Made by a program: the position numbers and the translations under genes. DNA of 64,000 nt from Asticcacaulis sp. ZE23SCel15. Its GTDB lineage: Bacteria > Pseudomonadota > Alphaproteobacteria > Caulobacterales > Caulobacteraceae. Every line of letters begins with the position of its first letter. The stretch's first letter is position 1. The stretch is from NCBI RefSeq assembly GCF_030505395.1, contig NZ_CP130044.1:1907001-1971000 (forward strand), in the 5' to 3' direction. This document shows positions 2,157 through 6,509 of this stretch, piece after piece. The notes beneath the pieces are model-generated. The model was not told where the DNA came from. It ran no database searches and saw only the letters and a list, made by a program, of their open reading frames with translations.

Positions 2157-4250
2157 TTAAGCCAGCGTTCGCACACTCGGCTCGCGCTCAAAGAAACGCA
2201 TAGCCGCCTTGTCAATAAAGTGTTCGGCAAAGACCACGCCGTCATCGTGGACCACACCGGCCTTATCGAGCAGGGGGTGGCTTTGCGGCGTATGACCGAT
2301 GGCTTTCAGGTGACCAAAGGCGTCCATAACAAACTGAATGGCGGCCCCTTCCGTCATCAGCGCCTTGCACCCGTCTTCCGACAAGCAGACAAAGATGGCG
2401 TCAAACAAGGCTGACGGTGCGCCCTGAAGCTGGGCATCGGCGGCCATGAGTTTGCCGTCGGACAGCTTGGCCCCACCGACCTTGGGGGCGATGAGGACGG
2501 CCTTAGCCCCCGCATCGGTCACGGCGGTCTTGACCTGTTTTAGCAAGGCAGCATCCGTGCCATCGGCGATCAGAATACCTACGGCACGGCCCTCAAGGGT
2601 TGGTTTCAGGTTCTTCTGGATCGACAGGGCGTCCGATGCGGGCAGGTCAAACGGCGTGCTGGCCGCCTTGGCCTTATCGGGCAAAGGCATGTTCATGCCG
2701 TCAGCGACGCGCTTGGCCAGGTCATCATTGACGTTGCGCAGATTGGCGACCATGCGTTCACGGACGGGGGCTAAACCGACCTTTGACAGTTCAAACACGA
2801 AGCTTGAGGCAATATGGGCCTGCTCGGACTCGGTTTGCGAAATCCAGAACAGGCGGGCCTGCGAATAGTGGTCGGCAAACAACTCAGCCCGCACCCGCAG
2901 CTTATCGCCCTGTTCATCCATATCGGCGCGACCGGCGTCAGTTTTGAAACCGGTTACCGGACATTCGCGCGGCCCGCCCGGTTCACCAAATTCGGCCAGA
3001 GAATTGGGCTCATAGTTGGCGCGGCCCTTGGGGACATTCATCTGCATCATGCCGTCGCGTTGGAAGTTCATGACCGGGCATTTGGGCGCATTGATCGGCA
3101 ACTGATGGAAGTTGGCGGTGCCCAGGCGTGATTTCTGGGTATCGAGATAGGAAAACAGCCGCCCCTGCAACAAGGGATCATTGCTGAAATCTATGCCGGG
3201 CACGATATTGGCCGGGCAGTAGGCGACCTGCTCGGTCTCCGCAAAGAAGTTATCCGGATTGCGGTCCAGCACCATGCGGCCGATGATCTTTATGGGCAGG
3301 GTTTCTTCGGGGATCAGCTTGGTGGCATCGAGCACATCATAGGGCAGGCTGTCGGCAAAGGCCTGATCGAACAGTTGTACCCCAAGTTCCCATTCCGGGA
3401 AATTGCCGGTGTCGATGGCTTCATAAAGGTCGCGGCGGTGGTAATCATTATCGGCCGATTGCAGCTTAAGCGCCTCTTCCCAGACCGTGGATTGCAGGCC
3501 CAGCTTCGGCTTCCAGTGGAATTTCAAAAAGGTCGACTGGCCTTTGGCATTGATAAAGCGGAAGGTGTGAACCCCGAAGCCTTCGATGGTGCGCAGACTG
3601 CGCGGAATGGTGCGGTCCGACATGGCCCACATCAGCATGTGGGTGGTCTCCGGCATCAGGGAGGCGAAATCCCAGAAGGTGTCATGGGCCGATCCGGCCT
3701 GCGGGTAACCGGAATTAGCTTCCATCTTTACCGAATGGACAAGGTCAGGGAACTTAATGGCGTCCTGAATGAAAAAGACCGGAATGTTGTTGCCGACCAG
3801 ATCCCAGTTACCTTCCTGGGTGTAGAATTTCACTGCAAAGCCGCGCACATCGCGCGGGGTATCAACCGATCCGGCCCCGCCCGCCACGGTCGAAAAGCGG
3901 GTGAACACCGGCACTTTTTCGCCGACGCGCTGAAACAAATCAGCGGTGGTCACATCCGACAGCGATTGGGTCAGTTCAAAATAGCCATGGGCGCCGGAAC
4001 CACGGGCATGGACTATGCGTTCCGGGATGCGCTCATGGTCAAAGTGAAAGATCTTTTCACGCAGGATGAAGTCTTCGAGCAGGCTGGGGCCGCGCACACC
4101 GGCTTTCAGACTGTTCTGGTTATCGGAGACGCGGATACCCTGATTGGTGGTCAGATGGCCGTCCGGCGTGTGGGGGCCTTTTTCCGGCACCTGCTGATGG
4201 GTTTCGCCGCCGCTACCTTTGACAGTATCAAAATGTGTCTTATCGTCCAT
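2157..4250 (-). CDS. katE: Monofunctional catalase, large-subunit clade (HPII type)
   Basis: A 697-residue haem catalase that degrades hydrogen peroxide. The catalytic His lies in ERIVHARG, the catalytic Asn in [12 protein letters not shown], and the proximal Tyr haem ligand in RLFSYLDTQ near residue 375. A C-terminal region of about 150 residues (from roughly 550) has the flavodoxin/DJ-1-like fold typical of clade 2 enzymes such as E. coli HPII, and the length fits that clade. The start at 4250 is chosen because GGGAGG stands five bases upstream; an ATG six codons earlier has no such site. A candidate small RNA is transcribed divergently from the upstream region. Confidence 0.95.
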
Positions 4251-4437
4251 GATGGCCTCCCAGCGCATATGTTGAATGGCCGGAAGGTGCGCCTTATGGG
4301 CGTAAAGATGCAGTCGTTAACGCGGCTGAATAGATAAGGGGACTGCGTGCGACACGCTTAAAATTTACGTTTTGTATACGATCACAAAACTACGCCAAAA
4401 TGTAACATGAGTTGAAGCGGATTGTGTTTTAAAAAAC

Positions 4438-4466
4438 TTGCAACTTTGTGCGTCGCAGCATATTCT
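4438..4466 (+). promoter_or_regulatory. Sigma-70-like promoter for the candidate small RNA
   Basis: TTGCAA (4438-4443) and TATTCT (4461-4466) are separated by exactly 17 bases. No open reading frame follows; the first hairpin of the candidate RNA begins nine bases downstream. It would fire away from katE. Confidence 0.5.
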
Positions 4467-4472
4467 GAGGTT

Positions 4473-4557
4473 GTTCAGCGTTTCGACGCTGATTGCCCTT
4501 CCTGGGCGTTTCCTCCCTGTAAACTTTTAGCCGGACATTCGTGTCCGGCTTTTTTTT
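4473..4557 (+). ncRNA. Candidate small RNA with two UUCG hairpins
   Basis: A stretch of about 85 bases with no credible reading frame lies between a 17-spaced promoter and an intrinsic terminator. It opens with the hairpin TCAGCGT-TTCG-ACGCTGA (4475-4492), passes through a single-stranded pyrimidine-rich segment that includes TTTCCTCCCTG (4509-4519), and ends with AGCCGGACA-TTCG-TGTCCGGCT plus a T run. The exposed CCTCCC stretch is complementary to Shine-Dalgarno sequences. Sequence supports the architecture; expression, targets and family are inference. The 5' end is estimated from the promoter. Confidence 0.6.
4529..4557 (+). terminator. Intrinsic terminator of the candidate small RNA
   Basis: A perfect 9-bp stem (4529-4537 with 4542-4550) closes a TTCG tetraloop and runs into eight T residues. 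No protein gene ends on this strand here, so the terminator implies an independent short transcript. Confidence 0.85.
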
Positions 4558-4578
4558 GCTCAAAATCTGGCCATGAAA

Positions 4579-4607
4579 AAAACCGCCGAAATCATTCCGG
4601 CGGTTTT
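4579..4607 (-). terminator. Intrinsic terminator downstream of opgH
   Basis: Perfect 10-bp inverted repeat AAAACCGCCG / CGGCGGTTTT with a 9-base loop; on the minus strand it is followed by a run of T. It lies 13 bases after the opgH stop. Confidence 0.85.
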
Positions 4608-4619
4608 GGGAGGGCAGAA

Positions 4620-6509
4620 TTATGGCAGTTGCGTTGCTGGCGTCAGCGGGCTGTCCATTGGACTATCGGACTCAGTTACAACCCGGCCCTCTTCGGGGAT
4701 CAGGAAAACCGGCATCAAACGGCGCGGTGTCGCCTTGGCCGTCAGGTAAGCTACCGGCACCGACAGCATCAACGCAAAGGCAGCACCGGCGGTCATCAGC
4801 AAGGTTTCGGGCGCGAAGATGGAGGCAACCAGCAACAGTCCCATGCCGATAAGCGTGTGGGCGGTGAAGCGCCGGGCCAGTTCATCGGCGGAGACTTCGT
4901 ATTCCGAGCGGCGCTGAGATTTCCAGCCGCTTTTGCGACCCGACAGGATCGACGCCACCATAAAGGCATGGCTGATCATCACGACCGGCGCGATCAGGGT
5001 CGACAACACCGTCTCGACGATCAAGCTTAATGTGGCGCGCACACCGCCGCCAAATCCGGCGCGGGTCTCAGCATCGCGCAGAACGACGATAGCTGCCAGA
5101 ACCTTGGGTACAATGAGAAACGCCATGGTGACAGCAAATAGTCCGGCCAGAGGCCCGACCGAGGTGGCGGCGGGTGTAATATCAGCGGCGGCCAGAGCGG
5201 CACCTGTGGCCACCATGCCCACCCACATCGGGGCCAGCAGATAGTTGAACACCCCGCGCAGCAGATGGAAACGGTTGATCCCGTGTAGGCCCGAAGCCCC
5301 AACCACGGCGGCATGTTGCAGATTGCCCTGACACCAGCGCCGGTCGCGACCCAGAGTGTCCATCAGGCTGGGCGGGCTTTCTTCATAGGAGCCATCAAGA
5401 TGCGGGGCCATGTGTACAGCCCAGCCGGCGCGGCGCAGCAGGGCGGCCTCAACAAAGTCATGGCTCATGATATGGCCGCCAAACGGCGCACGACCCGGCA
5501 GGTGCGGCAGGCCCGCCGCTTCGGCAAAGGCGCGGGTGCGGATGATGGCGTTGTGGCCCCAGAAATTGCCCTCAGACCCGGACCACCACGCAATGCCACA
5601 GGCGGCAACCGGGCCGTAAAGGCGGGCGGCGAATTGCTCGCAGCGCGCAAACAGGCTTTTGCGGTTGATCAGGCGCGGCGCGGTCTGGATCAGGCCGACG
5701 CGGGGGTGGCGCTCCATCCCGCCCGCCAGTCGCACCAGCGTGTTGCCGCTCATCAAACTGTCGGCATCGAGCACGATCATGTGGGCATAGGCTCCGCCAT
5801 GACGGCTGACCCAATCGGCGATATTGCCCGCTTTACGGTCGGTATTGATCGGGCGGCGGCGGTAATAGATACGCGGCGCACCGCTTAAGCGCTGCATCTT
5901 GAGGAAGGCGGTGCGCTCAGTCTCCGCCGCGACCGGATCTTGGGTGTCGCTCAGGACAAAGATATCGAACCGATTGCCTTGCAGGGTGGCGATCAGGGAC
6001 TGCCGGATGGTGTCTAACCGGCCGACGACCGCATGGGCGTCCTCGTTGCAGATCGGCATGAGAATGGCGGTTTGTTGTCTCAGCAGCGGGATCGGCCCGT
6101 CCGGAAACAGCCCCAGATCGTCCTGACGCGTAAGGTATACCCACACGCCGGCCAGGGATGAGATAAAGGCAAAGGCCATCCAGGTGAACAGAAAACCCGC
6201 CAGACCCAGAAACACCATCTCCAGCGGGTGAAACCCCTGATAGCTCAGGCTCGCCGCCAGCACGCCAATGCCGGTAACCCCGATCAGCAGCGACAGGCCA
6301 AAGATGAACACCCGACGCCAGATCATGTGGCGCGGTGAGGTCGGGATGAGCGCCGATGATAAGGCGCCTTCGGTCAGGGACTGCACCGGCATGTCGAGCG
6401 GGGCCTCAGACGGCATGACCGGCGTATGAGGTTCGGTCACCGGCTGGCGGATGCCAAAGGCGGGGCCCAAGCGGCCTGCAAATCTCAGTAAGTCCATCTG
6501 AACATCCAT
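4620..6509 (-). CDS. opgH: Glucans biosynthesis glucosyltransferase H
   Basis: Inner-membrane family 2 glycosyltransferase that polymerises the beta-glucan backbone of osmoregulated periplasmic glucans. About 629 residues with an N-terminal pair of membrane helices, a cytoplasmic catalytic domain containing the DADSLMSG nucleotide-sugar motif and the GRDRRWCQGN signature shared with E. coli OpgH, and several C-terminal helices. It is shorter than E. coli OpgH (about 850). The start at 6509 overlaps the end of the preceding opgG/D gene by 25 bases; an in-frame ATG at 6497 is the alternative, and frames extending further upstream would lie deep in opgG/D. Coupled translation with that gene is likely. 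Confidence 0.9.
   Translation of the reverse strand: MDVQMDLLRFAGRLGPAFGIRQPVTEPHTPVMPSEAPLDMPVQSLTEGALSSALIPTSPRHMIWRRVFIFGLSLLIGVTGIGVLAASLSYQGFHPLEMVFLGLAGFLFTWMAFAFISSLAGVWVYLTRQDDLGLFPDGPIPLLRQQTAILMPICNEDAHAVVGRLDTIRQSLIATLQGNRFDIFVLSDTQDPVAAETERTAFLKMQRLSGAPRIYYRRRPINTDRKAGNIADWVSRHGGAYAHMIVLDADSLMSGNTLVRLAGGMERHPRVGLIQTAPRLINRKSLFARCEQFAARLYGPVAACGIAWWSGSEGNFWGHNAIIRTRAFAEAAGLPHLPGRAPFGGHIMSHDFVEAALLRRAGWAVHMAPHLDGSYEESPPSLMDTLGRDRRWCQGNLQHAAVVGASGLHGINRFHLLRGVFNYLLAPMWVGMVATGAALAAADITPAATSVGPLAGLFAVTMAFLIVPKVLAAIVVLRDAETRAGFGGGVRATLSLIVETVLSTLIAPVVMISHAFMVASILSGRKSGWKSQRRSEYEVSADELARRFTAHTLIGMGLLLVASIFAPETLLMTAGAAFALMLSVPVAYLTAKATPRRLMPVFLIPEEGRVVTESDSPMDSPLTPATQLP

Follow-up and report, generated by a model that had tools for sequence, protein, structure and literature searches.

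A probable αR8-family small RNA gene of Asticcacaulis with a predicted PhaR operator in its promoter

Between a catalase gene and a family-2 glycosyltransferase gene of Asticcacaulis sp. ZE23SCel15 lies an unannotated stretch that reads as a promoter followed by a short, strongly folded transcript. The locus raises the question of whether this is a real small RNA gene, which family it belongs to, and what controls it. All coordinates below refer to the window, which is the whole 64-kb stretch of DNA that was analysed, unless a genome position is given.

The RNA gene and its family

A preliminary description had proposed a gene for a small RNA of about 85 nt, with a TTGCAA-N17-TATTCT promoter, two TTCG hairpins and an anti-Shine-Dalgarno segment. 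These elements were found in place. The promoter and the hairpin TCAGCGT-TTCG-ACGCTGA (4475–4492) could be read directly from the sequence, the pyrimidine-rich segment UUUCCUCCC (TTTCCTCCC) occupies 4509–4517 in a single-stranded linker, and the second TTCG hairpin with its eight T (4529–4557) was both read from the letters and picked up by a terminator scan, which recovered the stem at 4529–4550, with the T run at 4550–4557. Although both hairpins are real, a short third one between them, at 4495–4507, had been overlooked. The statement that no reading frame fits the stretch holds loosely, but a mechanical TTG frame of 202 aa (4422–5030) crosses it, antisense to the glycosyltransferase gene. 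A simple sigma-70 scan returned no promoters at 4438–4466. The features are:

4473–4557, + strand: αR8 (SisA/MmgR/suhB-type) sRNA gene, matched by RF00519; the start at about 4473 is placed from the −10 box and the 3′ end from the T run
4438–4466, + strand: promoter, with −35 TTGCAA at 4438–4443, a spacer of 17 nt at 4444–4460 and −10 TATTCT at 4461–4466
4475–4492, + strand: 5′ hairpin UCAGCGU-UUCG-ACGCUGA (from fold and covariation)
4495–4507, + strand: middle hairpin GCCC-UUCCU-GGGC (from fold and the Rfam consensus structure)
4509–4518, + strand: seed UUUCCUCCCU, an anti-Shine-Dalgarno 10-mer (from sequence)
4529–4557, + strand: Rho-independent terminator with a 9-bp stem, a UUCG loop and eight U (from terminator scan and fold)
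4443–4463, unstranded: predicted PhaR (AniA) operator
4401–4415, + strand: upstream element TGTAAC-N4-GTTGA, in many sibling copies replaced by the variant TGTAAC-N5-GTGATC

When positions 4470–4560 were folded as RNA, the energy was −35.8 kcal/mol, compared with −17.9 ± 2.5 kcal/mol for dinucleotide shuffles (z −7.1; 0/200). The Rfam model RF00519 (suhB/MmgR, αR8) matched positions 4488–4565 over model positions 1–77 with 63.6 bits (E = 9.2e-11 over the whole window), where the gathering cut-off is 41 bits, and was the only Rfam family above cut-off in the 64-kb window. According to the accessible text of PMC12559287, αR8 RNAs have the 10-mer UUUCCUCCCU in common, placed downstream of a weak hairpin. 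Here, too, it is internal, single-stranded and downstream of the weak hairpin at 4495–4507, and the Rho-independent terminator expected of the family follows at 4529–4557.

Two αR8 copies scored above cut-off in the genome. The sibling (G000:C1:1842251-1842329, 69.4 bits) adjoins a gene for N-formylglutamate amidohydrolase (FGase, PF05013), an address that is usual for αR8 copies without defining them; the 4473–4557 copy does not. The accessible part of PMC12559287 reports the FGase-adjacent location for sisA and most species, as the usual one in single-copy species, and places three of the four Caulobacter siblings elsewhere. A third match, at genome positions 2193233–2193307 (32.9 bits), was below the cut-off and lacked the 10-mer core, and was not counted as a copy. 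Further afield, RF00519 scored above cut-off in 38 of 41 relatives, 57 of 60 genomes of the family and 73 of 143 genomes of the class. A 32-base αR8 core pattern matched 42 stretches among the named genomes, all of them in Asticcacaulis, and a search of the plasmid collection gave no match.

The conservation of promoter, stems and loop that a real gene of this kind should show in related genomes was found. Three close species (G002, G004 and G013) have nearly the same promoter sequence, the layout recurs in the copies of the genus and, judged by eye, promoter and RNA form the best conserved part of a four-species intergenic alignment. Covariation was assessed in 19 hand-chosen sequences, all from Asticcacaulis. 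For the whole structure, none of 500 shuffles reached the observed value on any of five covariation measures, and in the 5′ hairpin both sides had changed at 7 of 7 pairs, with 97% of cells paired. No variation was seen in the middle hairpin (4/4 pairs) or in 5 of 7 terminator-stem pairs, which are therefore uninformative on selection, and another pair, close to the terminator loop, was unsupported (47% paired). The covarying 5′ hairpin lies mostly outside the Rfam model, and positions 4475–4487 are not part of the Rfam match.

The RNA had also been likened to CCUCCUCCC-type RNAs. These RNAs, known as 'cuckoo' RNAs, carry the CCUCCUCCC motif in the loops of stem-loops and share with the present RNA a pyrimidine-rich anti-Shine-Dalgarno segment. 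Their motif and layout are absent here, however: CCTCCTCCC does not occur in the stretch, there is only UUUCCUCCC, in the linker, and RF00519 scored far above its cut-off while no other Rfam family reached its own. That the RNA is of the CCUCCUCCC type is scarcely credible, and the likeness gave way to an assignment to αR8/RF00519. Judged from sequence, the locus very probably holds a genuine gene for a small regulatory RNA, an unannotated Asticcacaulis copy of the known αR8 family.

A predicted PhaR operator in the promoter

The promoter spacer contains the PhaR core box TGCGTCGCA at 4449–4457, and the surrounding positions 4443–4463 fit all 21 positions of the consensus WNWDDNYGCRNYGCRNHHWNW, which comes from Sinorhizobium meliloti (PMC12542648, accessible text). 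This is the only full-consensus PhaR site in the window. The whole genome has 37 such sites, compared with 23 for a reversed-pattern control, and both αR8 promoters are among the 37. Besides these two promoters, 22 of the sites were placed (the other 13 were left out), and 9 of the 22 fall within long frames; in view of these counts, many of the genomic sites must be due to chance. Two intergenic full-consensus sites precede the citrate synthase gene and the mannose-type PTS EIIA gene; in S. meliloti, PhaR sites are likewise predicted for gltA and manX, according to the available part of PMC12542648. A membrane pyrophosphatase and ExoD, also encoded behind PhaR sites, are only similar in kind to entries of the S. 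meliloti list, namely soluble ppa and exopolysaccharide genes. The genes behind most other intergenic sites are unrelated, among them those for TonB receptors, a chemotaxis protein and a mannosyltransferase. These candidate PhaR sites of the genome, before the PTS EIIA and citrate synthase genes and before some envelope or energy genes, are found in L374 and L385, near position 1500 of each locus, and in L372, L383 and L384.

The genome encodes PhaR itself (TIGR01848, 155 bits; cut-off 109), in a gene that adjoins frames reading, by eye, as phaA and phaB. Both marks of membership in a PhaR regulon, a phaR gene and a consensus box in the promoter, are thus present. PhaR was found in 39 of the 41 relatives, including the strain itself; the two without it (G027 and G039) also show no αR8, and in G031 PhaR is present and αR8 was undetected.

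The box recurs widely. A first promoter-spacer pattern, which was too strict, gave no match. With the core box defined as YGCRNYGCR, it was found at −53 to −57 from the GGGCG core in 45 of 50 distinct Asticcacaulis copies (53 distinct copies minus three rows of other genera), compared with 151 of 4560 random 45-nt windows, the copy counts not being independent because the copies of one genus are related. Across the class, with one copy per genome, 24 of 29 and 21 of 35 copies (45 of 64 together) had a core box in the 120 nt upstream, and 17 of these 45 had at least two. Compared with regions upstream of long ORFs (81/817), the class set gave a Fisher p of 5e-27. Other backgrounds were 358/4642 and 242/3442; one set was higher (134/737), and was given less weight because its windows are short, overlapping and near promoters. 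The 35-copy set comprises 40 loci minus five whose expected position held no core (L326, L329, L331, L332 and L338). The class set omits three of the 72 other class genomes above cut-off (G144, G169 and G183) and includes one genome of the same family (G166), one of the same order (G025) and some same-genus pairs. Copies from other Caulobacteraceae genera had the core box in 17 of 22 cases, again compared with 81/817 upstream of long ORFs, while the full 21-mer matched none of the 22 copies in this family sample. The full 21-mer was present in 28 of the 50 Asticcacaulis copies and in 11 of the 64 class copies, compared with 3 of 1391 flanking windows.

The box is not universal, and further copies from multi-copy genomes were divided, 12 of 20 having a box and 8 lacking one. 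All five box-less Asticcacaulis copies of the 50 have a GACAGCGCTGTC palindrome instead, and L063 has both; the palindrome loci are L008, L028, L048, L056, L063 and L090. In genus g155, each of six genomes sampled has exactly one αR8 copy with a box at −55 or −56. Among nine siblings of these copies, four have a GTAGCGCTAAC-type palindrome (L359, L362, L363 and L395), four a GACAACGTTGTC-type palindrome (L394, L397, L399 and L401) and one, L393, neither. The GACAACGTTGTC-type palindrome also lies upstream of three boxed g155 copies and is therefore compatible with PhaR control. Palindromes of other types mostly occur at copies that have no PhaR box, a pattern suggesting that the αR8 siblings are divided between regulators.

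Candidate controls of the RNA

We consider it likely that the gene encodes an Hfq-type sRNA of the αR8 family that is repressed by PhaR until PHB titrates PhaR, and that then covers Shine-Dalgarno regions through UUUCCUCCCU. PhaR bound between the −35 and −10 boxes would repress the sRNA promoter; when PHB granules form, the polymer would take up PhaR, and the RNA would be made. Together with Hfq, the RNA would then lower the translation of several mRNAs, whose Shine-Dalgarno regions its single-stranded UUUCCUCCCU would cover.

Hfq binding, seed pairing and repression by PhaR are proposed for the Asticcacaulis RNA by analogy with studied members of the family. MmgR of S. meliloti likewise belongs to RF00519, has a PhaR box in its promoter and is linked to PHB (PMC12542648 and PMC7143759, in their accessible parts). 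PhaR binds and represses the mmgR promoter, which was among those included in EMSAs (PMC12542648, same parts). MmgR differs in being single-copy in S. meliloti and also NtrC-activated (PMC12542648 and PMC7143759, same parts); the catalase/glycosyltransferase address is a feature of the Asticcacaulis 4473–4557 copy, unlike MmgR. SisA–SisD of Caulobacter crescentus resemble the Asticcacaulis RNAs in having UUUCCUCCCU below a short hairpin, a terminator and several siblings, one of them beside FGase, and SisA pairs with mRNAs through the 10-mer, covering their Shine-Dalgarno regions (PMC12559287, accessible text).

The same Caulobacter RNAs offer an argument against PhaR. The RNA might be constitutive, or under another regulator acting, for example, via TGTAAC-N4-GTTGA, with the PhaR-like box a by-product of shared promoter descent. 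SisA is nearly constitutive in Caulobacter, and its authors noticed no motif common to the regions upstream of sisA–D, as far as the available part of PMC12559287 goes. In 33 of the 50 distinct Asticcacaulis copies the PhaR box is preceded, at a distance of about 48 nt, by the second conserved element or its variant. Unlike sisA–D as so reported, however, the Asticcacaulis siblings mostly share the core box in the promoter spacer, and the class-wide boxes stand at varying positions and are repeated in 17 copies, which makes them more than inherited promoter sequence; the binding of S. meliloti PhaR to the mmgR promoter also speaks against this reading, which we regard as unlikely. With siblings divided as described above, an old PhaR input could be compatible with the lack of a common motif upstream of sisA–D.

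The catalase gene offered another partner: the RNA could be an oxidative-stress sRNA that controls the catalase gene or is controlled together with it. The preliminary description had placed the RNA divergent from the catalase gene, and this order holds in four Asticcacaulis genomes, the strain itself (G000) and G002, G004 and G013, the last three with the same catalase/αR8/glycosyltransferase arrangement. The catalase start region contains GGGAGG, and over 51 window genes catalase had the lowest seed duplex energy (−15.1 kcal/mol). However, the runner-up was at −15.0 kcal/mol, a margin of 0.1 kcal/mol, and no sure mRNA target emerged from seed pairing over the 51 genes; GGGAGG is missing from the same place in G013; and the sibling αR8 copy adjoins FGase. 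In a fifth genome, that of A. machinosus (G009), oxidoreductase, cytochrome c, αR8 and glycosyltransferase genes stand in the same order with catalase absent, and the catalase neighbour is therefore incidental. Catalase as a functional partner was dropped as the main reading, and such a partnership is improbable. The sequence evidence suggests that carbon reserves (PHB), rather than the neighbouring catalase gene, control the RNA.

Several further observations concern this neighbourhood. The strain's own catalase is 97% identical to that of A. endophyticus, near which the host was placed. Between cytochrome c and αR8, close species differ in whether catalase is present (window 2157–4268) or absent (L391, near 4704). 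An inverted repeat GTTTTGT-N8-ACAAAAC at 4369–4390, between catalase and αR8, is a possible catalase operator, and its TTTGT-N8-ACAAAAC part is kept in four species. Another inverted repeat, AAAACCGCCG...CGGCGGTTTT at 4579–4607, between αR8 and the end of the glycosyltransferase gene, is conserved in four species and is probably the terminator of that gene.

Finally, many phage contigs carry RF00519 elements, and the copy could be a relic, or a phage-derived late-leader copy with no present function. None of four neighbours tested (catalase, glycosyltransferase, oxidoreductase and cytochrome c) is a phage gene, and the conserved promoter and RNA and the full PhaR box, matched in 0 of 57 phage copies, also argue against such an origin. 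The terminator is of the host type, with eight T: the median longest T run after the core is 8 in 53 distinct copies, 7 in 51 class and family copies and 4 in 57 phage copies, a difference that is only suggestive, since copies for the class and family sets were chosen for the highest RF00519 score, a choice that biases them towards long T runs. We regard a relic or phage-derived copy as very improbable.

αR8 copies on phages and the wider family

Viral contigs were scanned with the core motif GGGCGTTTCCTCCCT, giving at least 120 stretches, and 80 of these were examined. RF00519 scored above cut-off in 57 of the 80 IMG/VR records (34/50 and 23/30; loci L218–L274), a rate that is inflated because the records had been preselected by the core motif. 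BLAST found five named phages, of which three were searched and two had RF00519 above cut-off. The PhaR core box occurred within 110 nt in 8 of the 57 phage copies, in scattered places and at about the background rate. One phage, L215 (PP395640.1), is listed under the cyanobacterium Microcystis; its αR8 RNA, at 62.8 bits, suggests instead that the host is an alphaproteobacterium or that the source was labelled wrongly.

A NusG-like gene ends 120–293 nt upstream of the RNA, on the same strand, in 13 of the 57 loci, and in 10 of these 13 a large terminase gene starts 0.9–1.3 kb downstream; at an eleventh locus with a downstream terminase the upstream sequence is too short to judge for NusG. One locus has a NusG-like gene 5 kb downstream instead, and four have another type of large terminase upstream of the RNA. 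The layout of NusG-like gene, αR8 and terminase thus holds for a minority of the 57. The profiles used were seeded from the same loci, and independent support comes from PHROG 6386 and Pfam NusG. PHROG 6386, 'transcription antiterminator', matched in 13 of 50 records, directly upstream of the RNA in 8 of the 13; matches in 12 of 14 control genomes agree with its being a NusG relative. Pfam NusG was above cut-off in 3 of 10 upstream phage proteins tested, with a fourth just below. In Bradyrhizobium phage ppBeUSDA76-1 (L216), the gene before the RNA, annotated as an ABC transporter protein, is one of these NusG matches, and HNH and terminase genes follow.

The position behind a NusG-like gene recalls phage lambda, in which the late leader RNA sits behind gene Q. 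It is possible, though we hold it only tentatively, that αR8 is common to alphaproteobacteria and their phages under two modes of control, with chromosomal copies governed by PhaR, and so by PHB status, and some phage copies governed by an antiterminator before the terminase genes. In the latter, the phage RNA would stop at its weak terminator unless the NusG-like antiterminator let RNA polymerase pass into the late genes. If so, the phage late promoter would yield a mimic of a host anti-Shine-Dalgarno regulator. Our search of the accessible literature found no report of αR8 on phages.

The family itself is known; what is new here is the predicted PhaR operator, an exact consensus match, in the Asticcacaulis αR8 promoter and the class-wide core box. 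A literature search, with most subscription journals outside its reach, found no report of a PhaR box at αR8 in Caulobacterales. PhaR is unmentioned in the accessible text of PMC12559287, and in the accessible part of one paper PhaR, mmgR and Caulobacter occur together with no link drawn between them. The phage copies are a more surprising lead than an ordinary unannotated chromosomal member, and they raise a separate question, that of phage use or mimicry of a host riboregulator, partly at the step before the packaging genes. For Asticcacaulis, an unannotated RNA gene gains a name and a likely input, and the class-wide PhaR box suggests that the αR8 family has taken PHB status as an input since early on.
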